Origin: a bacterium MS4
Lineage (GTDB): Bacteria; Bacillota; Clostridia; Oscillospirales; Acutalibacteraceae
Length of the DNA stretch: 40,899 bases
Direction: 5' to 3'
Assembly (NCBI GenBank): GCA_000752215.1
Contig: CCFG01000007.1
Span: 32,783-73,681, forward strand
This document shows positions 5,603 through 34,500 of this stretch, in pieces. Positions within the stretch are counted from its first letter, which is position 1, and each line of letters starts with the position of its first letter. The notes under the pieces were generated by a model. The model ran no database searches and had not been told where the DNA came from. It worked only from the letters and a program-made list of their open reading frames with translations. The translations under genes and the position numbers were made by a program.

Positions 5603-5661
5603 GTTTCTTCCTCAGTCAGGCTGCGCCTGCCAACTCCCTCAAAGAGGATACCTTAAAAGAA

Positions 5662-6144
5662 CCCCTGCCTCCCTCCGTGAGGGAGGTGTCGCGCCGGGTG
5701 CGCGGAAAGGAGCCTTCATAGGAGTGCCTTGCGGCCGATTCAACATATAACTGTCTGAGAGCGTCGCCGTAGGCGCGTGCCGACCGCATGGTCCTGCCCT
5801 CAGGCCGGGCGGGCCCCTACTTTCGGTTCTTGTACGAAAGTAGGCAAAGTACGCGCAGGGGGATTTTTAATTCCCGGCGGGAGGGTTCCATAAAATCCCC
5901 CTGCACCCCCAAGTATCCCCAAGGTGTCTTTAGGAGATAGGATACCGCTGTGGTTTTCATTGACGGGGGTACGGAAACTGGGATTAAACCCCTTCGGGGA
6001 AGGGGCCGAATCCCCTGCCTCCCTCCGTGAGGGAGGTGTCGCGCCCGGCGCGACGGAAGGAGCCTTCATAGGAGTGCCTTGCGGCCGATTCAACATATAA
6101 CTGTCTGAGAGCGTCGCCGTAGGCGCGTGCCGACCGCATGGTCC
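5662..6144 (+). repeat. Composite repeat element copy 1: 133-bp direct repeats around a 217-bp core
   Basis: Two nearly identical 133-bp segments, 5662-5794 and 6012-6144, lie exactly 350 bp apart. They differ mainly in the short GC-rich stretch after GAGGGAGGTGTCGCG. Each starts with an inverted CCTCC/GGAGG-type hairpin and ends with GACCGCATGGTC, which is itself palindromic. The 217-bp core carries a 10-bp perfect stem (5816-5825 with 5835-5844) and a longer stem in which GCAGGGGGATTTT pairs with AAAATCCCCCTGC about 25 bases later. No convincing reading frame fills the unit; the open minus-strand frame across it is low-complexity and has no start signal. The same core recurs at about 26.98-27.3 kb. 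The rest of the gap (5464-5661) holds an extra repeat fragment (about 5612-5652) and AT-rich DNA. Confidence 0.85.
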
Positions 6145-6166
6145 GCGACGGAAGGAGTTGTCCCCC

Positions 6167-11308: not shown

Positions 11309-13288
<1,980 letters not shown>

Positions 13289-13307
13289 TTAAACCGAAAC
13301 GTTCTGT

Positions 13308-13706
13308 TCAGAATCTTCTGTCTCTTCTATCGTAAATTTTCTGTGTCTGCTTCTGGGGGGACGGCTGCTGCGGCCGGCCGGCGGGGGACTGTTTTCTGTG
13401 GACTGCCGGTTTTCTCAGCCTGACCAGGAAAAAGCAGAGCAAATAAAATACAAAATACGGCAGCATAATGAAAAAAATGGAAGCAAGACTCAGCATTTTT
13501 ACGGAAATCATCCAAACAAGGTAAATCAGCCCGCTGAGTACGATTGCGCCGATAGCAAAAAAGTGAACGGCGGGGTCGAGCTCAATATTGGAGTAGCCGC
13601 CGCACTTGGGGCATTTGTACTCGCCCTGTGTCTTGATCGACCAGGTGCGCAGCAGCGTCAGTTTATTTCCGCAGTGCGGACATCGTGCTTTTCTGAATTT
13701 TTTCAT
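13308..13706 (-). CDS. Zinc-ribbon membrane protein of unknown function
   Basis: This 132-residue protein begins with a zinc ribbon, CPHCG (about 9-13) and CPKCG (about 33-37). Two or three hydrophobic segments follow (about 49-68 and 72-96), then a basic, Gln/Pro-rich tail ending RRDRRF. The ribbon is cytoplasmic by the positive-inside rule. The ATG at 13706 has an AAGGTG site. It lies 9 bases after remB and 58 bases before gyrB, all on the minus strand. This gene is not part of the Bacillus dnaA-gyrA cluster and looks like a lineage-specific addition. No family function is known to me. Confidence 0.75.
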   Translation of the reverse strand: MKKFRKARCPHCGNKLTLLRTWSIKTQGEYKCPKCGGYSNIELDPAVHFFAIGAIVLSGLIYLVWMISVKMLSLASIFFIMLPYFVFYLLCFFLVRLRKPAVHRKQSPAGRPQQPSPQKQTQKIYDRRDRRF

Positions 13707-13715
13707 TTTTTCACC

Positions 13716-13988
13716 TTAAACATTTGATATCTCGTCAATAAACCCTGTCCTTTTCAGAAGGGTGGAAGAGGAGATTTGCGTGATATAAACGATGATCCGG
13801 CTGTTTTTATCACAGCAAAGCACAAAGGATTTCGGCATTTCCATGGAAACGTTGACGACCCGGCCCTCTTTCTGGGCCGCAGAAAGATAGTTTCTGGTCG
13901 ATTTGGATATGGTAGAGGTTTCCATATCGAATATGCCCACAATATCACTGACTTTAATCACCGTGTCCTGCCCGAGATGAAGATACAT
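13716..13988 (-). CDS. remB: RemB/YaaB-like DUF370 protein
   Basis: The first residues of this 90-residue protein, MYLHLGQDTVIKVSDIVGIFD, and the C-terminal ISSSTLLKRTGFIDEI match the extracellular matrix regulator RemA/RemB family (DUF370). In Bacillus subtilis the equivalent gene, yaaB, lies at the same place between recF and gyrB. RemA of the same family is a DNA-binding regulator of matrix genes; RemB has a weaker, less understood role. Gene order makes RemB more likely than RemA. It is 15 bases downstream of recF and 9 bases upstream of the zinc-ribbon gene. Confidence 0.9.
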   Translation of the reverse strand: MYLHLGQDTVIKVSDIVGIFDMETSTISKSTRNYLSAAQKEGRVVNVSMEMPKSFVLCCDKNSRIIVYITQISSSTLLKRTGFIDEISNV

Positions 13989-14003
13989 AAAATAAAACCT
14001 TTC

Positions 14004-15071
14004 TCATTTTTTTATCAGGGTGCCGCCGTCCATTTCAAACAGGGCGCCCTCCCGGAGCTGCTGAATTGCGCCGGGTTCACAGCAGGTTATAAAAACCTGA
14101 CAGCGATCCAAATGATTGAGTAAATAATCCTGCCTGCCGGAGTCCAGCTCGCTCATTACGTCGTCGAGCAGAACAACGGGTCTTTCTCCGGTCTGGCTGT
14201 AAAGCATCTCGGCCTCCGCAAGCTTCAGGGCAAGGACGGCGGAACGTTTCTGGCCCTGTGAGCCGAACGTCCGCGCGGAGCGGAGGTCTATGGCAATATC
14301 AATATCGTCGCGGTGCGGGCCGACGCTGGTATGGCCCAGCGCCACATCCTCCCGGCGGGCCGCTTTCAGCGCCTTTTTCAGGTCTTCGGCGCTTTTTTGA
14401 TAGGTTAAATCAATGATTTCGGTATGTTGGGAAATGCCGGCGTAAATCTCTTTGACCGGTTCCTTGATTTTACGGATATAATCCATCCTGCCGAGGACGA
14501 TCGCTTCGCCGTAGGAAGCAAGCTTTTCATCCCAGATTTCAAGCGTATCCATCAGCTCGGCATGGCGGGGGATATCTTTTAAAAGGGTATTGCGCTGGAT
14601 CAGCGTGTGGTGATACCGCGAAAGAAGCGCTGCATACCCGGGTTTGATCTGGCAGAGGGCGGCGTCCATAAAGTCGCGGCGCTGGGAGGGGCCTTCGCGC
14701 ACAAGCGCGATATGCTCCGGGGAAAAAATCACGGAAAAAAACTTTCCGACCAGCCCGGAAGCGTTTTTTTGGGGAATCCCGTTCAAAACGGCGTTTCTGC
14801 GCCCGTTTTCAATCGTGATTTCCGCCGTCTGTTCGCGCTCCCCGCTGAAAAATTCCAGACTGAGCTTTGCGCCGGCTTCTCCCTGCAGAATCAGGTCGGC
14901 GTCCTTCGTTCCCCGAAAGGAACGGCCGCCGGTAAAAAGCCAGACCGCTTCCAGCAAATTGGTCTTTCCCTGTGCATTTTTCCCATATATTATATTGATC
15001 CCATTCTGCGGAATTATCACGCAGCGCCGGATATTTCTGTAATTTTCAGCCTCCAGGTGCTGGATAATCAC
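14004..15071 (-). CDS. recF: DNA replication and repair protein RecF (GTG start)
   Basis: RecF (355 residues) is an SMC-like ATPase that helps load RecA at gaps with RecO and RecR. Walker A (GKNAQGKTN) lies near 34-42, the signature GSQGQKRSAVLALKLAE near 274-290, and Walker B VVLLDDVMSELD near 304-315. The N-terminal ENYRNI segment is typical. The start is a GTG at 15071 whose last two bases overlap the yaaA stop (GTGA), with GAGGTG upstream, so it is translationally coupled to yaaA. It sits in the standard dnaA-dnaN-yaaA-recF order. Confidence 0.96.
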   Translation of the reverse strand: MIIQHLEAENYRNIRRCVIIPQNGINIIYGKNAQGKTNLLEAVWLFTGGRSFRGTKDADLILQGEAGAKLSLEFFSGEREQTAEITIENGRRNAVLNGIPQKNASGLVGKFFSVIFSPEHIALVREGPSQRRDFMDAALCQIKPGYAALLSRYHHTLIQRNTLLKDIPRHAELMDTLEIWDEKLASYGEAIVLGRMDYIRKIKEPVKEIYAGISQHTEIIDLTYQKSAEDLKKALKAARREDVALGHTSVGPHRDDIDIAIDLRSARTFGSQGQKRSAVLALKLAEAEMLYSQTGERPVVLLDDVMSELDSGRQDYLLNHLDRCQVFITCCEPGAIQQLREGALFEMDGGTLIKK

Positions 15072-15286
15072 CCGTTACACACCTCATATGTCACATCGTT
15101 GTATTCGGCCTTGTCGCCGTTTCTCATTTTTTTGCCGCGCATGGTGCAGATTTCTCCGTTGACCTTCACTTCGCCGGACTGCACGACAAATTTTGCCCGG
15201 CCGCCGGTGTCCACCGCGCCGCCAAGCTTCAAAAGGGCGTCCAGCCGGATAAATTCGGTATCAATGACGATTTTTTCCGTCTTCAT
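15068..15286 (-). CDS. yaaA: S4-domain RNA-binding protein YaaA
   Basis: This 72-residue protein is a single S4 domain. It contains IRLDALLKLGGAVDTGG, followed by KFVVQSGEVKVNGE and RGKKMRNGD, as in YaaA (also called RlbA) of Firmicutes. It starts two bases after the dnaN stop with GAGG in the end of dnaN, and overlaps recF by four bases. S4 domains bind structured RNA; in Bacillus YaaA is implicated in 50S ribosome maturation. Confidence 0.93.
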   Translation of the reverse strand: MKTEKIVIDTEFIRLDALLKLGGAVDTGGRAKFVVQSGEVKVNGEICTMRGKKMRNGDKAEYNDVTYEVCNG

Positions 15287-15288
15287 TT

Positions 15289-16395
15289 TTATGCCTCGCT
15301 CTTCAAACGGACCGGCAGCACCAGGAAAAGGAAGGAATCCCCTTCGCGCGGAAGAATTTTCATCGGGCTCAAAGCGCCGTTAAGCTGTATTTTCACTTCG
15401 TCGCCCTCGGTGTTTCGAAGGGCGTCGAGCAGATAGCGGTTGTTGAAGCCCATTTCCACGCCCGCGCCGTTGATTTTCGCGGAAAGCTGGTCGTTGGCGT
15501 GACCGATGGAGGTCGAGCAGGAAACCTTGATCTCCCCGTCCTCAAACACGCAGCGCACCGGGCTTTTCAGCCTGTCGGTAATCAGAAGGGAAACGCGCTC
15601 CACGCTGTCGATAAACGAACGGGTGGGAACGATGATTTCCGTTGAGCTGGCGCCGGGGATGGCGGCCTTATAGTCGAGAAATTCCCCTTCGAGAAGGCGG
15701 GAAATCACGCAGTAGTTTCCGATCTGGAATAAAATATGGCGCCGGCCGATCTGGACTTCAAGCTCGGTGTCGTCGTCGCTCAAAAGCTTGAGCACTTCGC
15801 CGAGCGTTTTGCCCGGGACGACAAAGCTGGTTTCTTCGCCGCAGGCGGTGGTTTCTTCTCTTAAAGCAAGACGGTAGCCGTCCACGGAGATCAGGCGGAT
15901 TTTATTTTTGCTCAGTTCGAACAGGGTACCGGTGTGGATCGGCTTTGCGTCGCTTTCCGCGACGGCGAAAATCGTCTGCCGGATCATGCTTTTCAGGATG
16001 CAGTTTGCGATCCGGATCGAGGTTTCCCCGGTAATGGCCGGAAGTTCGGGGTATTCCTCCGCGGGGATTCCCACAATGGAGAAATCCGCCGGTCCGCTCT
16101 TGATGGAAGTGATTTTTTTCTCGTCGGTGGCAAGGTATACGGTATCCGCCGGCAGACGGCGGACAATGTCGCCGAAAAGTCGTGCGCTCAGGACAATGCT
16201 TCCCGGTTCTTCCACCTGGGCCTCTATTTTTGTGGTCATTCCCAGTTCAAGGTCGTATCCGCACAGTGTAATTTCATTCTCGCCTGTTTTGAGCAGGATG
16301 CCTTCCAGAGCGGGAACGGATGATTTTGTGGACACGGCACGCTGAACATTCAACACAGCTTCGTTCAGCTGCTGCCGCTGGCAGGTTATTTTCAT
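15289..16395 (-). CDS. dnaN: DNA polymerase III beta subunit (sliding clamp)
   Basis: This 368-residue protein is of normal length for the dimeric ring that tethers DNA polymerase III to DNA. The N-terminus MKITCQRQQLNEAVLNVQRAV, the VVPGKTLGEVLKLL segment of domain 2 and the C-terminal PMKILPREGDSFLFLVLPVRL are characteristic. The last of these forms part of the hydrophobic partner-binding cleft. The ATG at 16395 has GAGGGTGAG upstream. It follows dnaA across a 306-bp spacer and leads into yaaA two bases later. Confidence 0.97.
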   Translation of the reverse strand: MKITCQRQQLNEAVLNVQRAVSTKSSVPALEGILLKTGENEITLCGYDLELGMTTKIEAQVEEPGSIVLSARLFGDIVRRLPADTVYLATDEKKITSIKSGPADFSIVGIPAEEYPELPAITGETSIRIANCILKSMIRQTIFAVAESDAKPIHTGTLFELSKNKIRLISVDGYRLALREETTACGEETSFVVPGKTLGEVLKLLSDDDTELEVQIGRRHILFQIGNYCVISRLLEGEFLDYKAAIPGASSTEIIVPTRSFIDSVERVSLLITDRLKSPVRCVFEDGEIKVSCSTSIGHANDQLSAKINGAGVEMGFNNRYLLDALRNTEGDEVKIQLNGALSPMKILPREGDSFLFLVLPVRLKSEA

Positions 16396-18015: not shown

Positions 18016-18299
18016 TCTTTAAACCTCATTCTAACAATTATTTATACTCTTAGGCATAACATAAATTATATTACCACAAAATACAATTTATTTCAAATTT
18101 CAATTGTCTGAGAAAATACAGTATATTGTATTGCGCGCGTGTAAAACACATAGATAATAAAATTTTTTTAAATGACGCGCTTTCACTTTTCTTTTACGGG
18201 GAAGTGTGGTATATTGATTTATATAACTTGACGAATTCAGTAATCAGCCTGTACGCCCGTAATTTCCAATATTTTTCGGTACGGGGGACAAAATTTAGG
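18016..18299. other. AT-rich divergent dnaA/rpmH intergenic region
   Basis: The space between the divergent dnaA and rpmH genes is strongly AT-rich and contains no reading frame I can support. It presumably holds the dnaA promoter and may hold origin elements, as in Bacillus where boxes flank dnaA. I found no consensus DnaA box and no convincing minus-strand -35/-10 pair. A TATAAT on the minus strand (18070 to 18065) lacks a partner at the right distance. Confidence 0.5.
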
Positions 18300-18329
18300 T
18301 TGACAGGCTGCGCATATTTAATATATAAT
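18300..18329 (+). promoter_or_regulatory. Consensus sigma-A promoter for rpmH-rnpA
   Basis: TTGACA (18300-18305) and TATAAT (18324-18329) are separated by 18 bp, 41 bases before the rpmH start. Both hexamers are perfect consensus, so strong constitutive transcription is expected. Confidence 0.9.
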
Positions 18330-18369
18330 GCTATATTGCAAGGTTTGTACCCCGAAAGGAGGTTTTTTC

Positions 18370-18504
18370 ATGCTGAGAACTTATCAACCAAAGAAGCTCC
18401 ACAGAAAAAAGGAGCACGGTTTCAGAAAAAGAATGTCCACAAGCAACGGCCGTAAGGTTTTGGCCCGCCGCAGAGCAAAGGGCAGAGCACGTTTGAGCTA
18501 CTAA
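18370..18504 (+). CDS. rpmH: 50S ribosomal protein L34
   Basis: This 44-residue highly basic protein begins [20 protein letters not shown] and has the [13 protein letters not shown] core of L34. The first residues differ slightly from the common MKRTYQPSKRKR form but keep TYQP. The ATG at 18370 follows GAAAGGAGG. It lies under a consensus promoter and is divergent from dnaA, the standard arrangement at Firmicute origins. Confidence 0.97.
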
Positions 18505-18511
18505 GCAAAAG

Positions 18512-18537
18512 GGCCACGGTGAGTGGCCTTTCTTTTT
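18512..18537 (+). terminator. Attenuator-type terminator between rpmH and rnpA
   Basis: GGCCAC (18512-18517) pairs with GTGGCC (18523-18528) around a five-base loop, followed by TTTCTTTTT. It starts seven bases after the rpmH stop. Partial termination here would keep L34 transcript in excess over RNase P protein. Confidence 0.85.
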
Positions 18538-18586
18538 AGCTTCGCTGCTTCACGGAACAAATCAGAATTGTGGTGCGATTTTAAGT

Positions 18587-18922
18587 ATGGATTTATTGAT
18601 TCCCATAACAGAAAACAAGGATTTCCGCAGGATTTATGCAAGGGGAAAATCGTATGTCAGCCCTGTGGTCATTACCTATGTTACGAAAAATCGCAGCAAA
18701 AACGTCCGGGTAGGGATCACCACCAGCAAGAAAATCGGCAACGCTGTGAAACGAAACCGTTCCCGCAGGGTGATCCGCGAGGCCTTCCGGGCTCTGGCGC
18801 CTGAAATTGCTCCGGGGCATGATTTTGTTTTTGTAGCCAGGGGCAAAACACCTTTTGTGAAAAGCACGGAAGTTCGCCGTGCAATGCTGCAGCAGCTGAA
18901 AAACGCGGGGGTCCTGAAATGA
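18587..18922 (+). CDS. rnpA: Ribonuclease P protein component
   Basis: This 111-residue protein has the RNR signature region [17 protein letters not shown] (about 51-67), preceded by [12 protein letters not shown]. It binds RNase P RNA and helps recognise pre-tRNA leaders. The ATG at 18587 lacks a good Shine-Dalgarno sequence (only GTGGTGCGA upstream), so translation is probably weak. Its stop overlaps the yidD start (ATGA). Confidence 0.96.
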
Positions 18923-19146
18923 AGCGCCCGCTTATTTTGCTTATCAGGTTTTACCAGAAAGCCATTTCCCCCTACAAAAAACCCTGCTGCAAATACTATC
19001 CCACCTGTTCGAATTACGCGATCGAAGCGATTGAGCGCTTTGGCGCGTTTAAGGGATTCTGGCTTGCATTCTTTCGGATACTGCGCTGTAACCCGTTCAG
19101 CCGCGGAGGATACGATCCCGTGCCGCAAAAACGGGACAAGCGATAA
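18919..19146 (+). CDS. yidD: Membrane protein insertion efficiency factor YidD
   Basis: This 75-residue protein has the full family signature: [20 protein letters not shown], then [37 protein letters not shown]. The conserved cysteines and the amphipathic N-terminus are present. It overlaps rnpA by four bases and precedes yidC by 24, the normal order. It supports YidC-mediated insertion at the inner face of the membrane. Confidence 0.96.
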
Positions 19147-19170
19147 CCACTATAGAGGAGTATTGCCCAT

Positions 19171-20238
19171 ATGACGGAGATTTTTAATTTTTTCGGAAAC
19201 ATTCTCGGCTATTTGCTTTGGTTTTTTTATACGCTGATTCAGAATTACGGCGTGGCAATTATTTTGTTTACACTCGTATTGAAAATAGTTATGTTCCCGT
19301 TTTCTATCAATCAGCAAAAATCGATGGCCGCGAACAGCAAAATGGCCGTCAAACAAAAAGAACTGCAGAAAAAATACGGGAATGATAAGGTAAAGCTTCA
19401 GGAAGAGACACAGAAGCTTTATGACAAAGAGGGAATCAATCCGGCGAGCGGATGCCTGACCACCTTTATCCCTTTCCCGATCATGATTGGACTGTTTTAT
19501 ACCGTACAGAACCCGCTTGCGAACGCCCTTCACCTTTCTGCCGAAGGAATCGCGAAGGCTGTTGAAATGCTCAAGCAGATTCCCGGTCTGGGTGCAAGCT
19601 TTTCTGCCCAGTACGCACAGATTGAAATCGTCAAGCATTTTACGCAGCTGAAACCCCAGCTGACCATGTTCAGCGCGGCGGAGCTTGCGAAAATAGAATC
19701 CTTCAGCCACGGCTTCCAGTTTATGGGGCTGAATCTTTTGGACACGCCGAGCGACGGCGCGAATATATTCGGTACCCTGTTCCGTTCCAACCTGTGGATT
19801 ATTCCCGCACTGTGCCTGGTATCTTCTTTGGTTACCCAGTATTTTACGATGAAAATGCAGCCGGGAATGCAGCAGCAGCAGGGATGCATGAAGGGAATGC
19901 TCTATCTGATGCCGCTGTTCAGCGCATGGCTTGCCTGCACAATGCCTGCGGCGGTTGGTTTTTATTGGATTATTTCGACGATATTCGGTTTCTTGCAAAC
20001 CATTATTCTGAATATCTGGTACAGCCCGGCGGACCTGAACGCGAAAGCGGAAGCGCAGAGGGTTGCCCTTCTGGAAGAAAACGAGTCAAAGATGAAGCCT
20101 GTTGCCGGCGCTTTCTACAGAAATCAGGAAATTAACCCGCAGCCGCAGCAGAGGACGACAGCAAAATCGGGAGCTTCAAAAACGAAAACAAAAGGCGGAA
20201 AAACAAATTCGGATGACTATCTAGGAATGAAAAAATAA
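19171..20238 (+). CDS. yidC: Membrane protein insertase YidC/OxaA/SpoIIIJ
   Basis: This 355-residue insertase has five hydrophobic segments. It begins with an N-terminal helix near 10-38, the conserved SINQQKSMAANSKM coiled region (45-58), PCxT-like GCLTTFIPFPIMIGLFYT, and C-terminal helices ending in a soluble Lys/Gln-rich tail from about 310. There is no lipobox signal peptide, unlike Bacillus SpoIIIJ. The groove arginine of the usual VRxxLxP motif appears as Lys38 (LKIVMFPF). The ATG at 19171 has GAGGAG upstream. It inserts membrane proteins alone or with SecYEG; in spore formers one paralogue also acts in sporulation. Confidence 0.95.
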   Translation: MTEIFNFFGNILGYLLWFFYTLIQNYGVAIILFTLVLKIVMFPFSINQQKSMAANSKMAVKQKELQKKYGNDKVKLQEETQKLYDKEGINPASGCLTTFIPFPIMIGLFYTVQNPLANALHLSAEGIAKAVEMLKQIPGLGASFSAQYAQIEIVKHFTQLKPQLTMFSAAELAKIESFSHGFQFMGLNLLDTPSDGANIFGTLFRSNLWIIPALCLVSSLVTQYFTMKMQPGMQQQQGCMKGMLYLMPLFSAWLACTMPAAVGFYWIISTIFGFLQTIILNIWYSPADLNAKAEAQRVALLEENESKMKPVAGAFYRNQEINPQPQQRTTAKSGASKTKTKGGKTNSDDYLGMKK

Positions 20239-20260
20239 GACGAACCGGGGAGGGAATACC

Positions 20261-21115
20261 GTGATAAAAGAAGCGATTGCAACCGGTGAAACCGTTGAGC
20301 TGGCAAAAGAAGCCGCATGCAGGGAGCTCGGCGTTGAATCCTATGAAGCGGAATTTGAAATTTTGGAAATGCCGACGAAAAAGACCTTCGGCCTTTTCGG
20401 CGGAAACCCTGCGAAGGTAAGAGTCTTTATCAAAAACGATCCGGCGGAGGCCGCTGCGAAGTATCTGAAAGGGATCCTTGATAAAATGGGTCTTTCTGCG
20501 GTGGATATTCAGATCAAAGAGGAAGAGAACGGCGCGCAGCTCTCCCTTTCCGGCGATGATATCGGCTTTATCATCGGTCACCGCGGGGAAACGCTGGACG
20601 CGCTTCAGTACTTGACCGGCCTTGTCGCTAACCACATTGACAATTCCTATTACAGAATTACCATCGATATTGGAAATTATCGCGAGAAACGCAAGGAAAC
20701 GCTGGAAATCCTCGGAAAGAAGATTGCCGCGAAAGCGATCAAGACCGGACGTAATTCTTCCCTGGAGCCTATGAATCCATATGAACGCAGAATCATCCAT
20801 ACCGCTGTCCAGACAGTGGAGGGCGCAAAATCCTGGTCCGAGGGCGAAGATTTGTCCCGCCATGTCGTGATTGGGCCGGAAGCCGGCGAACGTCCGGCTC
20901 CCCGCAGAAACAATTACGGCAAAGGACAGGGACGCCGTCCGTACAATGACAAACCGCGCAGCGGCGGATACAACAACAGACAGCCGAGATCCGCGCCGAA
21001 TGTCGGCCCCGTACCGAGCGCCGGTTCCGTACCTGCCCGCCAGCCGGTGCAGAAGGCAGCGCCGAAGAATGAAGGCAAGGCTCCGCTTTATGGCCGCGTT
21101 GACGTCAAGAAATAA
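20261..21115 (+). CDS. jag: RNA-binding protein Jag/KhpB (GTG start)
   Basis: The Jag_N domain (about 1-50) of this 284-residue protein has the KKTFGLFGG motif near 46-54. A KH-like segment DDIGFIIGHRGETLDALQYL lies near 103-122. The R3H domain contains LEPMNPYERRIIHTAV. The last about 75 residues are a disordered Arg/Gly/Asn/Pro-rich tail not found in short homologues. The GTG at 20261 follows GGGGAGGG at good spacing. It follows yidC by 22 bases and ends in a terminator. With KhpA it binds RNA and affects cell division and envelope growth in Gram-positives. Confidence 0.94.
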   Translation: MIKEAIATGETVELAKEAACRELGVESYEAEFEILEMPTKKTFGLFGGNPAKVRVFIKNDPAEAAAKYLKGILDKMGLSAVDIQIKEEENGAQLSLSGDDIGFIIGHRGETLDALQYLTGLVANHIDNSYYRITIDIGNYREKRKETLEILGKKIAAKAIKTGRNSSLEPMNPYERRIIHTAVQTVEGAKSWSEGEDLSRHVVIGPEAGERPAPRRNNYGKGQGRRPYNDKPRSGGYNNRQPRSAPNVGPVPSAGSVPARQPVQKAAPKNEGKAPLYGRVDVKK

Positions 21116-21130
21116 TCTTATAACGAAGCA

Positions 21131-21164
21131 CAAAGGGCGGTTCATTTGAATCGCCCTTTGTTTT
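21131..21164 (+). terminator. Intrinsic terminator after jag
   Basis: A 13-bp stem (CAAAGGGCGGTTC with GAATCGCCCTTTG, one G-U pair) with a four-base loop is followed by TTTT. It ends the rpmH-jag transcription unit and directly abuts the first, truncated CRISPR-like repeat. Confidence 0.9.
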
Positions 21165-21495
21165 ATATGGAGCGCGGATTGAAATTGATAGTTGTAATTC
21201 CGCATGGAAAACAGGTATTCGTCGTTCCCCACATGGGGCGTGGATTGAAATGGCGTTGAGACAGTTCAGTTTCAGTATTACTTTCGTCGTTCCCACACGG
21301 GAACGCGGATTGAAACACCAGCTATGAAATGTGTGACAATAACGGCATTCGCCGTTCCCCGCCGGGGGTGTGGATTGAAACAGTGAAATTCAGAACGAGC
21401 CGATCGGGCCGGTCGCTCCTATACGGGAGCGTGGATTGAAACGATGAATGGCATGACGGGCGGATCAACCGGAACCTATTGGTCCCGTGTGAAAC
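21165..21495 (+). CRISPR. Short degenerate CRISPR-like array, type I-C-like repeats
   Basis: Four 31-base repeats lie at 21221-21251, 21286-21316, 21351-21381 and 21412-21442. All begin G(T/C)CG and end G(T/C/)GGATTGAAA(C/T), with a hairpin in between. A truncated repeat (3' half only) lies at about 21165-21185 and a possible 3' remnant at 21482-21495. Spacers are 35, 34, 34 and 30 bases with no similarity to one another. Repeats differ only in the stem-loop: the third can form CGTTCCC/GGGAACG and the fifth CGCTCC/GGAGCG, a compensatory change. The 3' GTGGATTGAAAC handle is that of type I-C arrays. No cas gene or leader is in the window. It occupies the jag-mnmE gap; 21496-21559 holds nothing else. 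Confidence 0.75.
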
Positions 21496-21559
21496 TCAAA
21501 AACTGGTAAAAATAAGCGATAGGGAAAACAAAGACGATTGATCTTATGAGGGAACAAGA

Positions 21560-22951
21560 ATGAAAAACGAAAACGGATATGCTCCGTCAGCAAAAACGAT
21601 CGCGGCGATTTCCACGCCGCAGGCGCCGGGGGGAATCGGCATTGTGCGCCTTTCCGGACCGCGGGCAAAAGAGATTGCCGGAAAGGTGTTCACCTCCCGG
21701 CACGGTAAAACACTGGAGGACGTGAAAGGGTACACCGCCCTTTACGGCAGGGTACATGACGGCGAAACGGATATCGACGAGGCAATTGCCCTGAATTTTA
21801 CCGCGCCCGCCAGCTTTACCGGCGAAGACGTGGTGGAGATTTCCTGTCACGGGGGGCTGTATATCATGCGCCGCGTTCTGAAAGCGGTATTTGCCGCGGG
21901 TGCGGTTCCGGCCGGGCCGGGGGAATTTACGCGCCGGGCGTTCCTGAACGGAAAAATCGGGCTGACCGAAGCGGAGTCCGTTATGCAGATCATTTCCGCG
22001 CAGGGGGAACAGGCCGCGAAGGCCGCGCTTGCCGGTCATGACGGTGCGCTGGAAAAGAAAATTATCAAGATACGCGGGATGCTGATTGAGGCTGCCGCGC
22101 ATTTATCCGCTTGGGCGGATTATCCGGAGGATGATATCCCGCAGGTAAACCCGGAGAAGCTGCAGACCACCCTGCTGACCGTAAAATCCGAAATCGAGCA
22201 CCTACTGCGCCAGTTCGACGCGGGGCGGGCCATCCGCGAGGGGGTCGCGACGGTGATCGCCGGACGCCCGAATGTGGGAAAATCCACCCTGATGAATCTG
22301 CTGGCCGGGTGCGAGCGCAGCATCGTCACCGAATACGCCGGAACGACCCGAGATATCGTCGAGGATACGGTGATTCTCGGCGACGTTCCGCTCCGCCTGT
22401 CCGACACCGCCGGAATCCGCCTGACCGACGATCCGGTGGAAAAAATCGGCGTGGACCGCGCGCGCGGCAAGCTGAGGGAAGCGCAGCTGGTTCTGGCGGT
22501 TTTCGACTCCTCTCAGGAGCTGAACGGCGAGGACCGGGAGCTGGTTTCCGCAATCCGGGAATCCGCCGCGATTGCGGTGATCAATAAAAGCGATTTGCCT
22601 GCAAAAATAGACGTACAGTATATCAATAAATATTTTCAACAAATAGTATATATTTCTGCGCTTTCAGGCGAAGGCTTGCAGGAGCTGAAGGACGCGGTGG
22701 CGGAAGTGCTGCGTACTTCGGAGCTGAACCCCGCGGACGGGATTCTGTTTACGGAACGCCAGCGCGACGCCGCCCGGCAGGCCGGGGACTGTGTAACGGA
22801 AGCGCTGACGGCGGTGGAAAGCGGAATGACCCTGGACGCTGTGACGGTATCGATCGAAGGGGCAGTCTCCGCGCTTTTGGAGCTGACCGGCGAACGCGCG
22901 ACGGAAGCGGTCGTGGATTCCGTGTTCTCGCATTTTTGTGTAGGAAAGTAA
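21560..22951 (+). CDS. mnmE: tRNA modification GTPase MnmE
   Basis: MnmE (463 residues) works with MnmG to add the (carboxymethyl)aminomethyl group to U34 of certain tRNAs. The N-terminal tetrahydrofolate-binding domain contains APGGIGIVRLSG and the GEFTRRAFLNGKIGL segment. The GTPase domain has G1 GRPNVGKST (235-243), G2 GTTRD, G3 DTAGIR and G4 NKSD. The C-terminus ends FCVGK, with the catalytic Cys of the CxGK motif at 460. The ATG at 21560 has GAGGGAA upstream. mnmG follows 24 bases later. Confidence 0.97.
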   Translation: MKNENGYAPSAKTIAAISTPQAPGGIGIVRLSGPRAKEIAGKVFTSRHGKTLEDVKGYTALYGRVHDGETDIDEAIALNFTAPASFTGEDVVEISCHGGLYIMRRVLKAVFAAGAVPAGPGEFTRRAFLNGKIGLTEAESVMQIISAQGEQAAKAALAGHDGALEKKIIKIRGMLIEAAAHLSAWADYPEDDIPQVNPEKLQTTLLTVKSEIEHLLRQFDAGRAIREGVATVIAGRPNVGKSTLMNLLAGCERSIVTEYAGTTRDIVEDTVILGDVPLRLSDTAGIRLTDDPVEKIGVDRARGKLREAQLVLAVFDSSQELNGEDRELVSAIRESAAIAVINKSDLPAKIDVQYINKYFQQIVYISALSGEGLQELKDAVAEVLRTSELNPADGILFTERQRDAARQAGDCVTEALTAVESGMTLDAVTVSIEGAVSALLELTGERATEAVVDSVFSHFCVGK

Positions 22952-22975
22952 ACGAATCATATTGGAGGAATACCT

Positions 22976-24850
22976 TTGAAATACGATGCCGGTAATTATG
23001 ATGTTGTGGTGATCGGCGCCGGACATGCCGGAATCGAGGCCGCGCTCGCATCCGCGCGCCTCGGCTGCAGCACCTGCGTTTTCACAATCAATATGGACGC
23101 CGTGGGAAACTGTCCCTGCAATCCGTCCATCGGCGGAACGGCAAAGGGCCATCTGGTCCGGGAAATCGACGCGCTGGGCGGAGAAATGGGAAAAACCGCG
23201 GACGAAGCTATGCTGCAGAGCAGAATGCTCAATCTGGGTAAAGGCCCCGCCGTCCATTCTCTGCGCGCGCAGATCGACCGCCGGGAATACGGCAAGATCA
23301 TGAAGCGAAAGCTGGAAACACAGCCGAACCTGCAGCTGAAGCAGGCGGAAATCGTGGACCTGGAGCAGGGGCCGGACGGCCTCTGGCTGGTCACGACCCG
23401 GATGGAAGCGGTCTATCGTGCGAAAGCGGTGGTAATCGCCACCGGCACTTATCTTGGCGGAAAAATTTATGTCGGCGACGTTTCCTATGAAGGTGGGCCG
23501 GACGGAATGTTCCCTTCGGCGTTCCTCGGTGCGGCGCTGAAAAAAATCGGTCTGCGCCTCCGCCGCTTCAAAACCGGTACCCCCGCGCGCGTGCTGAAAT
23601 CCAGTATTGACTTTACCGGTCTTGAGGTACAGGAAGGCGACGAACCCGTCGTTCCGTTTTCCTATGATACCCTGACTCCGCTGAAAAACCGTGCGGTTTG
23701 CCATATTTCCTGGACAAACGACGGCACCAAGCAAGTGATCTTGGAAAATATTGGGCGCTCCCCCATGTACAGCGGTAAAATCGAGGGGGTGGGCCCCCGT
23801 TACTGCCCGAGCTTTGAGGATAAAATCATGCGCTTCCCGGATAAGAAACGGCATCAGCTTTTTATTGAACCCTGTGGGATGGATACCGAGGAAATGTATT
23901 TGCAGGGGATGAGCTCTTCCCTTCCGGAAGAAGTGCAGATCGCTTTTTACCGCACGATCAAGGGATTGGAGCATGTGGAAATCATGCGCTGTGCCTACGC
24001 GATTGAATACGACTGCGTCGACCCGCTTCAAATGGAGGCGACGCTGGAATTTCAGGAATTCCCCGGGCTTTATGGCGCGGGGCAGTTCAACGGCAGCTCC
24101 GGTTACGAGGAGGCCGCCGCACAGGGGCTGGTTGCCGGAATCAACGCCGCTTTGAAAGTAACGGGAAGGGAGCCGATGGTCCTTGACCGCGCTGGGTCCT
24201 ATATCGGAACCTTGGTGGATGACCTGATTACCAAAGGAGTCAGCGACCCCTACCGGATGATGACGTCGCGGAGCGAATACCGGCTGGTGCTTCGTCAGGA
24301 CAACGCCGACGAACGCATGACCCCGACCGGCAGAAAAATCGGGCTGATCTCCGATGATCGTTGGGAACGGTTCCAGCAGAAGCAAAAGCAGAAGGAGCAG
24401 GAGCTTCTGCGCGCGGAAAAGACCGTTCTGCCGCCGTCCGAGGCCCTGAATCAGCTGCTTGTTTCACATGAAACATCACCGGTAATCACCGGCGTGCGCC
24501 TTGCGGAGCTGATTCGCCGCCCACAGCTGAATTATGAGATTTTAAAGGAAGTCGACAGCGACCGGCCAGACCTGCCCGCCGCGGTTTTTGAAAACGTGGA
24601 AATTGAAATCAAATACGAGGGCTATATCAAGCGGCAGAAAGCGGATATTGCGGAAATGCGCCGTCTGGAAGAACGCCGTTTGCCCGCTAAGATCAATTAT
24701 AAGGAAATTGTCGGCCTGAGAACCGAAGCGCAGGAAAAGCTGCAGAAGGTGATGCCTGCAAGCGTCGGACAGGCTTCCCGTATTTCTGGCGTCAGTCCCG
24801 CGGATATTTCTGTGCTGCTGATCTGGCTTGCGCGCGGCAGGGGGGAATAA
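22976..24850 (+). CDS. mnmG: tRNA uridine modification FAD enzyme MnmG (TTG start)
   Basis: MnmG (624 residues) is the FAD-dependent partner of MnmE. The dinucleotide-binding motif VVIGAGHAGIEAA lies near 11-23, the family signature CNPSIGGTAKGHLVREIDALGG near 46-67, and SSGYEEAAAQGLVAGINA near 375. The C-terminal helical domain ends ISGVSPADISVLLIWL. The start is a TTG at 22976, six bases after GGAGGA; no upstream or nearby in-frame ATG fits. A parS site is embedded in the coding sequence at 24460-24475. Confidence 0.96.
   Translation: MKYDAGNYDVVVIGAGHAGIEAALASARLGCSTCVFTINMDAVGNCPCNPSIGGTAKGHLVREIDALGGEMGKTADEAMLQSRMLNLGKGPAVHSLRAQIDRREYGKIMKRKLETQPNLQLKQAEIVDLEQGPDGLWLVTTRMEAVYRAKAVVIATGTYLGGKIYVGDVSYEGGPDGMFPSAFLGAALKKIGLRLRRFKTGTPARVLKSSIDFTGLEVQEGDEPVVPFSYDTLTPLKNRAVCHISWTNDGTKQVILENIGRSPMYSGKIEGVGPRYCPSFEDKIMRFPDKKRHQLFIEPCGMDTEEMYLQGMSSSLPEEVQIAFYRTIKGLEHVEIMRCAYAIEYDCVDPLQMEATLEFQEFPGLYGAGQFNGSSGYEEAAAQGLVAGINAALKVTGREPMVLDRAGSYIGTLVDDLITKGVSDPYRMMTSRSEYRLVLRQDNADERMTPTGRKIGLISDDRWERFQQKQKQKEQELLRAEKTVLPPSEALNQLLVSHETSPVITGVRLAELIRRPQLNYEILKEVDSDRPDLPAAVFENVEIEIKYEGYIKRQKADIAEMRRLEERRLPAKINYKEIVGLRTEAQEKLQKVMPASVGQASRISGVSPADISVLLIWLARGRGE
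24460..24475. promoter_or_regulatory. parS site 1 (inside mnmG)
   Basis: TGTTTCACATGAAACA matches the ParB binding site TGTTTCACGTGAAACA at 15 of 16 positions. The identical sequence recurs at 27418-27433. Being within coding DNA, it reads as Leu-Val-Ser-His-Glu-Thr in MnmG. Confidence 0.9.
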
Positions 24851-24851
24851 G

Positions 24852-25565
24852 ATGGAGGATATTCGCGAACGGCTGGTTTCTTCCGCACAGGATGCGGGAA
24901 TCGTGCTGAGCGGGGAACAGACGGAAAGTTTTCAACAATATATGGAGCTTCTGCTGAATTGGAATGAGAAAATCAATCTGACCGCCATTAAAGAGCCCGA
25001 AGAAATTGCGTACAAGCATTTTCTGGACAGCATCCTCATTTTGAAGTATCTGAACCTGCCGGAGGGCACGAAGCTGATCGATGTCGGCACCGGCGCGGGA
25101 TTTCCCGGCGTACCGCTTAAGCTGATGCGCCCCGGGCTGAACCTGACTCTGCTGGACGGGCTCAATAAACGGCTGGTCTTTTTGCAGGATCTGGCGGAAA
25201 AGTTACATTTCAGTGCTGAATTTGTGCATGCGCGCGCGGAGGAAGCCGGAAGGCAGGCCGCATACCGGGGAAAATTCGATTTTGCCACGGCGAGAGCTGT
25301 TGCGCCGCTGAACCTGCTTTGCGAATACTGCCTGCCGTTTTTGAAAATCGGCGGGGTATTTATCGCGATGAAGGGGCCAGAACCGGAGGAGGAAGTCTGC
25401 GCGGCGAAAAACGCTGTTGCTCTCCTGGGTTGTACGCTGGACGGAATCGAAAAGTTTGAACTGCCGAACGGGGACAGCCGGAGCCTGATACTGATTAGGC
25501 GGACGGGACCCATTCCCGCGGCTTATCCGCGGCACGGGGCAAAGATTGCGAAAAGTCCGCTTTAA
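24852..25565 (+). CDS. rsmG: 16S rRNA (guanine527-N7)-methyltransferase RsmG
   Basis: This 237-residue SAM methyltransferase has the motif LIDVGTGAGFPGVPLK near 74-89 and the LTAIKEPEEIAYKHFLDSI segment before it. The later motif FDFATARAVAPLNLLCEY is also typical of RsmG/GidB. The ATG at 24852 is chosen because GGGGGG lies five to six bases upstream; a longer frame would overlap mnmG. It begins one base after the mnmG stop, and the three tRNA/rRNA modification genes form a unit. Confidence 0.95.
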   Translation: MEDIRERLVSSAQDAGIVLSGEQTESFQQYMELLLNWNEKINLTAIKEPEEIAYKHFLDSILILKYLNLPEGTKLIDVGTGAGFPGVPLKLMRPGLNLTLLDGLNKRLVFLQDLAEKLHFSAEFVHARAEEAGRQAAYRGKFDFATARAVAPLNLLCEYCLPFLKIGGVFIAMKGPEPEEEVCAAKNAVALLGCTLDGIEKFELPNGDSRSLILIRRTGPIPAAYPRHGAKIAKSPL

Positions 25566-25702
25566 GCCTTCCTTCCTATGCATCGACGATCGTTTTTAGA
25601 ACCGTGATGCCGCTTCGAATAAACAGGAATCGTGTGGAAGGAACCCGAAAGCACACAAACTGCCAAAAAATAACAAATAAAAAAATTTATAATTACCATA
25701 AT

Positions 25703-25732
25703 TTTACAAAAAATCGCCGCGCTCCATGTTAT
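25703..25732 (+). promoter_or_regulatory. Possible promoter for noc
   Basis: TTTACA (25703-25708) and TGTTAT (25727-25732) are 18 bp apart, 37 bases before the noc start, in an AT-rich stretch. The -10 matches only four of six consensus positions. The remainder of 25566-25702 has no gene. Confidence 0.35.
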
Positions 25733-25768
25733 CCTTAACAAAAAGGGACAAGCAAGGAGGCGGCGAAT

Positions 25769-26581
25769 TTGCATATTATGGGTGAAAAGCGCAAAGTGGT
25801 TCAGATCAATATCGATTCAATCCATCCAAATCCGGCGCAGCCGCGGCGTTCATTCAGCGAGCAGGAATTGCTGGAGCTGTCGAGAAGCATCCGGACAAAC
25901 GGATTGCTTCAGCCGATTTCCGTCCGCCGAGTCAAAGGCGGCTACGAGCTGATCGCCGGGGAGCGGAGGCTGCGCGCCTGCAGAATGGCCGGCCTTCCCA
26001 CCGTCGCCTGTATTATCAGCGATTGTTCCGCGGAAACCAGCGCCGTCCTTGCCATGACCGAAAACCTGCAGCGGCAGGATTTACAGATCTTTGAGGAAGC
26101 AGAAGGAATCCGCCGCCTGATCGAGCAGTGGGATGTTACACAGGAGGAAGCTGCACTCCGGCTGGGAAAAAGCCAGTCCACGCTTGCAAACAAGCTTCGT
26201 CTGCTCAAACTTTCCGAAGAAGAGCGGGAAAAAATCACTGCCTGCGGGCTGACCGAACGGCATGCCCGTGCACTGCTGCGCATTAAAGAGGAAAAAGTCC
26301 GCGAGAAGGTGCTTGGACAGATTATTGGGAAGCATCTGAACGTGCAGCAGACGGACGATCTTGTAGATAAGCTTCTGGAAGAAAACCAAAAACCGAAAAG
26401 CAAACGCACTTTTATAATTAAGGATGTGCGTGTCTTTCTAAATACAATCAATCATGCGATTGAGACGATGAAACAAAGCGGCATCAATGCGCAGACGCTG
26501 AAAAGCGAAACGGACGAATATATTGAATGTCTGGTCCGTATTCCCAAGACGCAGGCAACGGGTGGAAAAAAGCCTGCTTAA
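25769..26581 (+). CDS. noc: Noc-like ParB-family nucleoid occlusion protein (TTG start)
   Basis: This 270-residue ParB-family protein has the CTP-binding motif GERRLR (64-69), ENLQRQD (98-104) and a helix-turn-helix around 123-147. In the latter the segment GKSQSTLANKLRLL has Gln and Lys where the second ParB has Arg and Ala (GKSRPTVANALRLL). In the ParB/Noc family those positions help separate Noc from ParB specificity. Gene order (rsmG, then this, then parA-parB) is also that of Bacillus noc. The TTG at 25769 is favoured by AAGGAGG eight bases upstream; the ATG at 25778 would be too far. It lacks the clear N-terminal amphipathic helix of Bacillus Noc. No exact Noc-binding site was found. 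Confidence 0.8.
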   Translation: MHIMGEKRKVVQINIDSIHPNPAQPRRSFSEQELLELSRSIRTNGLLQPISVRRVKGGYELIAGERRLRACRMAGLPTVACIISDCSAETSAVLAMTENLQRQDLQIFEEAEGIRRLIEQWDVTQEEAALRLGKSQSTLANKLRLLKLSEEEREKITACGLTERHARALLRIKEEKVREKVLGQIIGKHLNVQQTDDLVDKLLEENQKPKSKRTFIIKDVRVFLNTINHAIETMKQSGINAQTLKSETDEYIECLVRIPKTQATGGKKPA

Positions 26582-26675: not shown

Positions 26676-26699
26676 TCGGGGGGAAGGGGGGCGAACTCC

Positions 26700-27410
26700 C
26701 TCAGTCAGGCTGCTCCTATCAGCTCCCTCAAAGAGGGAGCCTTAGTAAGCGATCCCTTGCCTTCCTCTATGAGGGAGGTGGCGCGCTCGGCGCGACGGAA
26801 GGAGTTTCAGAGCATCAGACTTCGATTTAAGGTAAGGCGATTGGAAGCATCGCCGTAGGCGCTTCGCCGACCGCGTGGTCCGCGCTCGGCGCGTCGGAAC
26901 GGTATCGCCGCAATTAAACGGATAGCTGTCTGAGAGCATCGCCGTAGGCGCCTGCCGACCTCATGGTCTGCCCTCAGGCCGGGCGGGCCCCTACTTTTGC
27001 TCTTGTACGAAAGTAGGCAAAGAACGCGCAGGGGGATTTTGGACCTGCCGGTCCGGGATGCGCCTACGGCGGACTCGACTGCAGGTCAAAAGATGAATGG
27101 GTCGCTAATTCCGTCGTTCTAAGTAATGGCGAGAGGGTTCCATAAAATCCCCCTGCACCCCCCAGGTATCCTCAAAGGGTCTTTGTGAGATACGACACTC
27201 CTGTGATTTTCATTGACGGGGGAACGGAAACGGGATTAAACTTCCTCGGGGAAGAGGACCGAATCCCCTGCCTCCCTCTTTGAGGGAGGTGTCGCGCCTG
27301 GCGCGGCAGAGGGAGTTTCGGAGGAATTAGACTTCGATTCGATGTAGGCCGACTGGAAGCGTGGCCGTAGGCGCGTGCCGACCGGCAGGTCCGCTTCCCC
27401 GATCGGCAGG
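26700..27410 (+). repeat. Composite repeat element copy 2 (between two parS sites)
   Basis: This is the same dispersed family as at 5.66-6.14 kb, in the same orientation. The left part has CAGTCAGGCTG..., a CTCCCTCAAAGAGGGAG hairpin and several GCATCGCCGTAGGCG blocks. The shared core runs from about 26970: GGCCGGGCGGGCCCCTAC, the CCTACTTTTG/CGAAAGTAGG stem, and GCAGGGGGATTTT ... AAAATCCCCCTGC. Here the latter stem has about 80 bases more in its loop than copy 1. The right part repeats CCTGCCTCCCTC and GCGTGCCGACC. No coding frame with a start signal is seen. The element sits between parS 2 and parS 3. Confidence 0.8.
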
Positions 27411-33512: not shown

Positions 33513-33589
33513 GGACGCATAGCTCAGCTGGTTAGAGCGCTCGCCTCACACGCGAGAGGTCATGGGTTCGAGTCCCCTTGTGTCCACCA
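33513..33589 (+). tRNA. tRNA-Val (CAC)
   Basis: The 77-base cloverleaf has acceptor GGACGCA with TGTGTCC, anticodon stem CTCGC/GCGAG with loop CTCACAC (anticodon CAC), T-arm GGGTTCGAGTCCC and encoded CCA. Its last 21 bases are the start of the tandem array that follows. Confidence 0.94.
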
Positions 33590-34136
33590 AATAAGAAATG
33601 CACCCGAAAGGGTGCTTTTTTATTCCCCGCTTGGGGACTCGAACCCCGGCGCAAGTCGGGAGAAATGCCCGGCCTTCCGTATTTTTTAGCTAGGGGAGGG
33701 ACTCGCGGAACGCGGGCCGTTGTACGACCACCCGAGTCCCCTTGTGTCCACCAAATAGAAATGCACCCGGAAGGGTGCTTTTTTATTCCCCGCCTGGGGA
33801 CTCGAACCCCGGCGCAAGTTGGGAGAAATGCCTGACTTTCCGTATTTTTAGCCTGGGGAGGGACTCGCGGAACGCGGGCCGTTGTACGACCGCCCGAGTC
33901 CCCTTGTGTCCACCAAATAGAAATGCACCCGGAAGGGTGCTTTTTTATTCTCCGCTTGGGGACTCGAACCCCGGCGCAAGTTGGGAGAAATGCCTGACTT
34001 TCCGTATTTTTAGCCTGGGGAGGGACTCGCGGAACGCGGGCCGTTGTACGACCGCCCGAGTCCCCTTGTGTCCACCAAATAGAAATGCACCCGGAAGGGT
34101 GCTTTTTTATTCTCCGCTTGGGGACTCGAACCCCGG
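33569..34136 (+). repeat. Tandem array of tRNA-Val 3'-end plus terminator units
   Basis: Units begin at 33569, 33733, 33895 and 34057 (periods 164, 162, 162; the fourth is partial). Each starts with the last 21 bases of tRNA-Val (from CGAGTCCCC to CCA). An AAATA spacer and a perfect terminator follow (GCACCC, tetraloop GAAA or GGAA, GGGTGC, TTTTTT). Next comes a reverse-complement copy of the T-arm (GGGGACTCGAACCCC), then a GC-rich stretch ending GGGACTCGCGGAACGCGGGC. The units are over 90 percent identical by eye. Each unit can fold on itself through CGAGTCCCC/GGGGACTCG. Read on the minus strand the 162-bp period leaves frames open, but no protein is likely. Confidence 0.9.
33600..33621 (+). 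terminator. Terminator of the tRNA cluster (first of five copies)
   Basis: GCACCC-GAAA-GGGTGC followed by TTTTTT begins 11 bases after tRNA-Val. Further copies are at 33763-33784, 33925-33946, 34087-34108 and 34392-34413; the fifth lies beyond the regular array. Confidence 0.92.
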
Positions 34137-34413: not shown

Positions 34414-34500
34414 ATTTGGCTCCCTCTTTGAGGGAGCTGTCAGGCAAAGCCTGACTGAAGGAGTTTCTCAGAAATTTAGCTGAGGACTCCCTCGGCGCGC
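34414..34500 (+). repeat. Partial copy of the dispersed GAGGGAG repeat
   Basis: Two adjacent hairpins, GCTCCCTC/GAGGGAGC (34419-34437) and GTCAGGC/GCCTGAC (34439-34455), are followed by GGAGTTTCTCAG and a GGCGCGCCCGGCGCGC block. This matches the left end of copy 2 of the composite element in inverted order. Confidence 0.65.

Follow-up and report, generated by a model that had tools for sequence, protein, structure and literature searches.

A probable relict type I-C CRISPR array, lacking cas genes, between jag and mnmE in two sister species of Clostridia

Results

A degenerate repeat-spacer array lies between jag and mnmE

The window, by which we mean the whole analysed stretch of 40,899 nucleotides from bacterium MS4 (Acutalibacteraceae), contains a run of housekeeping genes, yidC, jag/eloR, mnmE, mnmG and rsmG, of which an earlier note on this DNA had recognized jag and mnmE. 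The jag/eloR gene (20261–21115) was identified with NCBIfam model NF041568 Jag_EloR (219.7 bits against a cut-off of 145), and mnmE (21560–22951) with TIGR00450 (340.7 bits against 252.6). Both genes and all the features described between them are on the forward strand. Immediately downstream of jag is an intrinsic terminator (21130–21161) with a 14-pair stem and a T tail. The segment enclosing it (21125–21172) has a predicted folding energy of −22.8 kcal/mol (z −5.7), and a similar hairpin is present 3′ of jag in three genomes that have no array at this place (G003, G009 and G005).

The array spans positions 21169 to 21495 and consists of four full 31-base repeats, two truncated repeats and five unique spacers, which agrees with the repeat count given in the earlier note. 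Repeat 0 (21169–21185) is truncated at its 5′ side. Its 17 bases are the end of a repeat, comprising the second half of the hairpin and the handle, and they start 7 bases past the stem of the jag terminator, which the earlier note had described as adjoining the first repeat. Then follow spacer w0 (21186–21220, 35 nt), repeat 1 (21221–21251), spacer w1 (21252–21285, 34 nt), repeat 2 (21286–21316), spacer w2 (21317–21350, 34 nt), repeat 3 (21351–21381), spacer w3 (21382–21411, 30 nt), repeat 4 (21412–21442), spacer w4 (21443–21480, about 38 nt) and a degenerate terminal repeat (about 21481–21495). The spacer length of 30 to 35 bases stated before holds for the first four spacers and fails for the last. 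The four full repeats all differ from one another instead of being nearly identical.

These repeats are confined to the locus. The 3.74-Mb genome contains the exact handle 12-mer GTGGATTGAAAC at two places, each within the array, and does not contain its reversed control. When the active repeat of a sister species (G002, with MnmE 97% identical) was used as a doubled query against the window genome, E values below 0.01 were obtained at the jag–mnmE array only; elsewhere there was one 20-base match (E 0.72). We detected no leader at the truncated first repeat and no promoter-like site, and a strong terminator lies upstream of the array. A cmscan search of the window at gathering scores recovered three tRNAs and no other known RNA family.

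Two other repeated structures were observed in the window. Positions 33569–34136 contain 3.5 tandem copies of a 162-base unit with 96% matches, each copy beginning with the 3′ end of the tRNA at 33513–33586 and a terminator-like stretch; by their layout, these copies resemble repeated att-type duplications of a tRNA end. A dispersed repeat family, 72–96% alike, occupies 5607–6147 and 26694–27394, with pieces at 34418–34476, and the alignment between the window and G002 breaks at or near these stretches.

The repeats are of type I-C, and the window genome lacks a type I-C system

The sister species G002 has a complete type I-C system (cas3-cas5c-cas8c-cas7c-cas4-cas1-cas2), and the main array beside it contains 46 repeat copies as counted by a handle search. 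The repeat of this array is a clean version of those in the window, which bears out the earlier assignment of a type I-C-like handle. Seven full repeats, four from the window and three from the corresponding site of G002, differ from the main-array repeat by 1 to 6 substitutions. The main-array repeat has a 31-base and a 32-base form, and each copy was compared with the one closer to it. Judged by its repeats, the window array is type I-C by descent.

Also in line with the earlier note, which saw no cas genes or leader, Cas1, Cas7 and Csd1/Cas8c were all absent from the window genome (98.6% complete, 17 contigs). Cas7 and Csd1 were present in 4 of the 11 genomes of the genus, and Cas1 in 8 of the 15 genomes chosen for its search, the window genome being in neither group. 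A model of the Cas3-like C-terminal region gave two matches below its cut-off in the window genome, and this model also responded in all 14 control genomes.

We then compared the window genome with an 18-kb query containing the cas locus of G002. The right flank of the locus matched at 94% identity, from a point shortly ahead of the truncated repeat that closes the G002 main array; apart from this flank, the query matched only a 38-base stretch and the jag array. A truncated trailer repeat lies in the window genome at C17:687103 (L145, about 1501–1530), at the site of the CRISPR-Cas locus of the sister. The left breakpoint of the lost cas locus was not found, with only one further match (381 bases at 85.6%) before the G002 locus. 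As read from these alignments, the window genome has lost its I-C system, and a trailer relic remains at the site that the system occupies in G002.

The sister species has an array at the same site with other spacers

G002 also has a degenerate array between jag and mnmE, with the same truncated ends. The flanks of the two genomes align at 94.6% up to position 21185, where the first truncated repeat ends, and the alignment resumes inside the last repeat, at position 21483, with 93.6% identity. Between these junctions, no spacer is common to the five of the window and the four of G002.

Handle-like copies were present in the jag–mnmE gap in 2 of the 11 genus loci. In the nine array-free loci, no handle-like match with 2 or fewer mismatches was seen, and the gap, measured from the last Jag match to the start of MnmE, is 100–291 bases long, versus 447 in the window and 386 in G002. 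Among wider relatives, 80 loci were fetched; of the 56 that had both genes, not one showed two or more handle-like copies in the gap, and a pair of such copies within 80 bases was absent from all 80. The simplest reading of this comparison is that the array arrived before the window species and G002 separated, with both ends already truncated, and that its contents changed later.

Spacers match Mu-like transposable phages

A blastn comparison of the window stretch with phage records gave 17 matching records, all weak (best E 0.3). The best match was w1 in the terminase gene, encoding the large subunit, of Faecalibacterium phage FP_Mushu (E 0.009 as a single query), with mismatches at 6 of 34 positions and TTC directly upstream. 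According to PMC5883640, Mushu belongs to the Mu-like transposable phages, and TTC is reported as functional for one I-C system (PMC8406640). With the G002 stretch, four phage records were matched, and its spacer g0 was placed in the transposase gene of FP_Mushu and near copies (best E 0.08), again with TTC directly upstream of the protospacer.

Matches were then counted in 85 phage loci (1.09 Mb) that were collected as relatives of the Mushu terminase, a set which contains the first matches and is not independent of them. Spacer w1 gave 42 matches with at most 8 mismatches, 34 of which had TTC, and g0 gave 9 matches, 8 of them with TTC. Spacer w3 gave 40 matches with at most 7 mismatches, in the same terminase gene as w1. 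Five shuffled controls of each spacer gave none. TTC was directly adjacent in none of the 40 w3 matches. Among 121 matches at a looser cut-off, the bases adjacent to w3 were mostly AAC, preceded by TTT (27) or TTC (21), and the commonest six bases upstream were TTTAAC and TTCAAC. Presumably the 3 nt AAC was lost at the 5′ repeat-spacer edge of w3, in which case the spacer would fit the TTC motif. Spacer w2 matched the set once (shuffled controls 0), in a single unannotated faecal phage contig, MT839438.1, with 6 of 34 mismatches, TTC upstream and a blast E of 4; we assign it to this target tentatively.

For the other five of the nine spacers (w0, w4, g1, g2 and g3), no match was found in the 85 loci. 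No match came from scans of viral_contigs with exact 20-mers of w4, w3 and g0, and none from codon-degenerate scans with w4, w2, w0 and g1. A plasmid search returned weak matches only (best E 0.02), and the sole match of the spacers to the window genome itself was a 20-base stretch within w3 (E 0.58). A repeat element with fixed spacers and no counterpart in mobile DNA, the outcome against which the earlier note had weighed its array, is not what was found; the spacers differ in the sister species and three of the five in the window match phage DNA.

The mismatches between w1 and FP_Mushu fall at third codon positions, except at the last base of w1. Translated, w1 gives the 11 residues GVETVQFQYYF, the version most often seen in the phages (20 of 36 distinct). 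In the main array of G002, 11 of 42 distinct spacers matched the 85-locus set, versus 1 of 42 when shuffled. Nine of them are consecutive (spacers 4–12 of 45), and the other two (38 and 43) are weak matches. Spacers 4–12 are in the main I-C array at L139, about 12639–15629 (contig C1 of G002). This run looks like the product of repeated (primed) acquisition from one phage group. The best match had TTC for 3 of the 11, and the motif rule is not clean in this array. None of the 33 spacers of the main array of G003 matched the phage set.

At E ≤ 1e-30, neither the window genome nor G002 gave a match to a Mushu-like terminase. G005, a member of the genus without Cas1, Cas7 and Csd1, encodes a terminase with 56% identity to the Mushu protein (L239, C1:1660091–1661647), perhaps from a related prophage.

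Repeats and spacers have changed at about the neutral rate

The neighbouring genes provided a measure of neutral change. At 4-fold sites of yidC, jag, mnmE, mnmG and rsmG, the window and G002 differ at 140 of 969 positions (0.144), corresponding after correction to 0.080 for each lineage after the split. In the seven full repeats, 22 of 211 sites (10.4%) are changed relative to the active repeat (Poisson P 0.13 versus 8%); this count omits the final base of every repeat as well as the four truncated copies at the ends, and takes as baseline the present-day G002 repeat, not an ancestor. In spacers w1, w3 and g0, 3 of 56 columns (5.4%) that are at least 90% conserved among phage homologues were changed. 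This figure is from a homology-filtered set; a loose cut-off (0 of 27 columns) was dropped, as it let in unrelated w3 matches. By this comparison, the repeats and spacers have changed about as inert DNA would under neutral drift from roughly the time of the species split.

Divergence between the window and G002 in 1-kb bins was 2.8–10.3% overall, with 3.1–5.1% in the three bins before the array and 5.7–7.2% in the five bins from the array on. At 4-fold sites (window 18016–26250), yidC and jag are at 0.078–0.095, below mnmE, mnmG and rsmG at 0.156–0.193, and the array lies between the two groups. Import of one flank by recombination, a possible cause of the different spacers, was not supported by the bin and 4-fold divergences.

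Hairpin pairing does not establish a conserved RNA

Besides decay, the earlier note had proposed that the covarying repeats might be distinct structured RNAs. We scored the stem in the seven copies of the two species, counting one deletion as a broken pair, and 46 of 49 pairs were standard. This value was reached by 27.6% of all arm permutations (p 0.28), which is not significant, and by 2.4–4.7% of neutral simulations (p 0.02–0.05). Predicted folds retain the canonical stem in two of the four window copies (z −2.4 and −2.8) and lack it in the other two (z −0.2 and −0.8). In repeat 1, the stem is weakened and one base has been lost; repeat 4, with 2 substitutions, keeps it. Strict two-sided compensation (C-G to T-A) occurs in a single window copy, repeat 2 at 21286, where the compensated pair keeps the canonical 7-bp stem, and compensated pairs are also present in one G002 copy. 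In repeat 3 at 21351, the most diverged with 6 substitutions, the pairs are kept on paper only, through G-U wobbles, and the predicted fold departs from the canonical stem. The compensatory change proposed for two copies thus stands for the one at 21286 and not for that at 21351. Covariation was rejected as a sign of a conserved RNA on the permutation result, and with half of the window copies devoid of the canonical stem we do not retain the structured RNA proposal.

The handle carried substitutions at 4 of 77 sites and the hairpin at 18 of 134 (Fisher p 0.065, or 0.044 when the two truncated copies are added). The lower change in the handle and the pairing above neutral simulation hint at room for weak selection.

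Discussion

We regard the array with good confidence as a relict, an orphan type I-C array without cas genes or leader that is decaying and is ancestral to the window species and G002. The other half of what the earlier note proposed, decay with partly kept structure, is upheld by the I-C descent, the lack of cas genes and leader and the about neutral change; its observation as a whole keeps a real array and a weak case for covariation.

On this relict reading, the common ancestor of the two species would have had an array between the jag terminator and mnmE that worked in trans with a chromosomal I-C system and carried spacers directed at Mushu-group phages, which are Mu-like and transposable. 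The leader may have been lost or never present, and both ends would have been reduced to truncated repeats before the species split, and therefore acquisition of spacers by the normal leader route was probably impossible. The two species may then have kept different remnants, most simply by recombination between the once-identical repeats of a longer array. The absence of shared spacers (5 versus 4) needs such a long ancestral array or late turnover. Drift of repeats and spacers at a nearly neutral rate would have followed the split. The window genome has also lost its I-C cas genes, and without Cas7 and Cas8c the array there is probably inert as a source of I-C immunity. Some copies of the G002 array might still be processed by the Cas5c resident in that genome.

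A maintained, trans-acting array would account for the same site differently. Strains of the G002 type would transcribe it by read-through from jag, the resident Cas5c would cut the transcript, and Mushu-like phages would be targeted; selection would keep handle and hairpin, and the drift of the repeats would protect the array from recombination. The handle is indeed less changed than the hairpin (p 0.04–0.07), compensated pairs occur in one copy of each species, and the main array of the complete I-C system in G002 has spacers that match these phages too. Degenerate repeats of CreTA are also reported to be recombination-resistant (PMC9458426). A strong terminator upstream with no promoter-like site, change of both repeats and spacers at about neutral rates, the absence of Cas1, Cas7 and Cas8c from the window genome and a permutation test that is not significant all argue against such maintenance, which we consider unlikely. 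A similarly small chance is given to a leaderless secondary I-C array that has stayed at a fixed site in the two sisters, its repeats drifting through the species split, and that is maybe still cut and used in trans where Cas proteins were kept. If true, this would be a frozen, recombination-resistant memory against Mushu-like phages whose contents were fully replaced between leaderless sisters.

Birth of the array in place is very improbable. An array born by off-target spacer integration is a neo-CRISPR, and here I-C Cas1-Cas2 would have integrated spacers by the jag terminator, independently of the main array. An array without cas genes or leader, beside a hairpin, at a site that is array-free in 9 of 11 genus genomes would suit this origin. 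Off-target integration should duplicate the local target, however, and the full repeats are all full-length I-C repeats close to that of the main array, with no handle-like match at 2 or fewer mismatches at any of the nine array-free sites. Barely credible, in our view, is a regulatory role of the CreTA or scout-RNA kind, in which ectopic repeats would guide Cascade to host promoters and not to phages. In CreTA, a crRNA-like antitoxin represses a toxin RNA. CreTA does have degenerate CRISPR repeats outside the main array, according to PMC9458426, and the window repeats share this feature. The window array differs in having not one or two repeats but five spacers. Three of these spacers match phage DNA (two well supported), none is shared with the sister species, and the only match elsewhere in the window genome is the 20-base one within w3. 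Linkage to a CRISPR-Cas locus, whose effector CreTA needs, is likewise absent, the window genome being without cas genes near the array and without Cas1, Cas7 or Cas8c anywhere.

Several known systems come close to the window array. Like type I-C arrays, the window array has repeats of 31–32 bases with a hairpin and a GTGGATTGAAA(C/T) handle, spacers of about 34 nt and TTC next to the protospacers of w1, w2 and g0, though not directly next to those of w3; unlike them, it is leaderless in a genome without Cas1, Cas7 and Cas8c, its repeats are all unlike and both end repeats are truncated. The orphan CRISPR2 of Enterococcus faecalis is reported to be cas-less, ubiquitous in the species and variable in spacers between strains (PMC4580645). 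Spacer content is variable in the window array as well, but none of its full repeats is unaltered, and only two sister species were found to have it. Listeria RliB is described as a cas-less CRISPR that is expressed, processed by PNPase and able to interfere with Cas proteins supplied in trans (PMC3886909). It resembles the window array, as far as that account goes, in occupying one genomic locus across genomes and in its phage-directed spacers; in contrast to RliB, the window array is in advanced decay.

Orphan arrays without cas genes and with variable spacers are thus already known, and what is unusual here is that sister species hold different phage memories at the same spot. The locus would offer a dated case of CRISPR decay, in which the array, a lost cas locus and a living sister system are found in one genus and the neighbouring genes serve as a neutral clock. 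It also suggests that these Clostridia have long used I-C immunity against Mu-like phages of the Mushu group.
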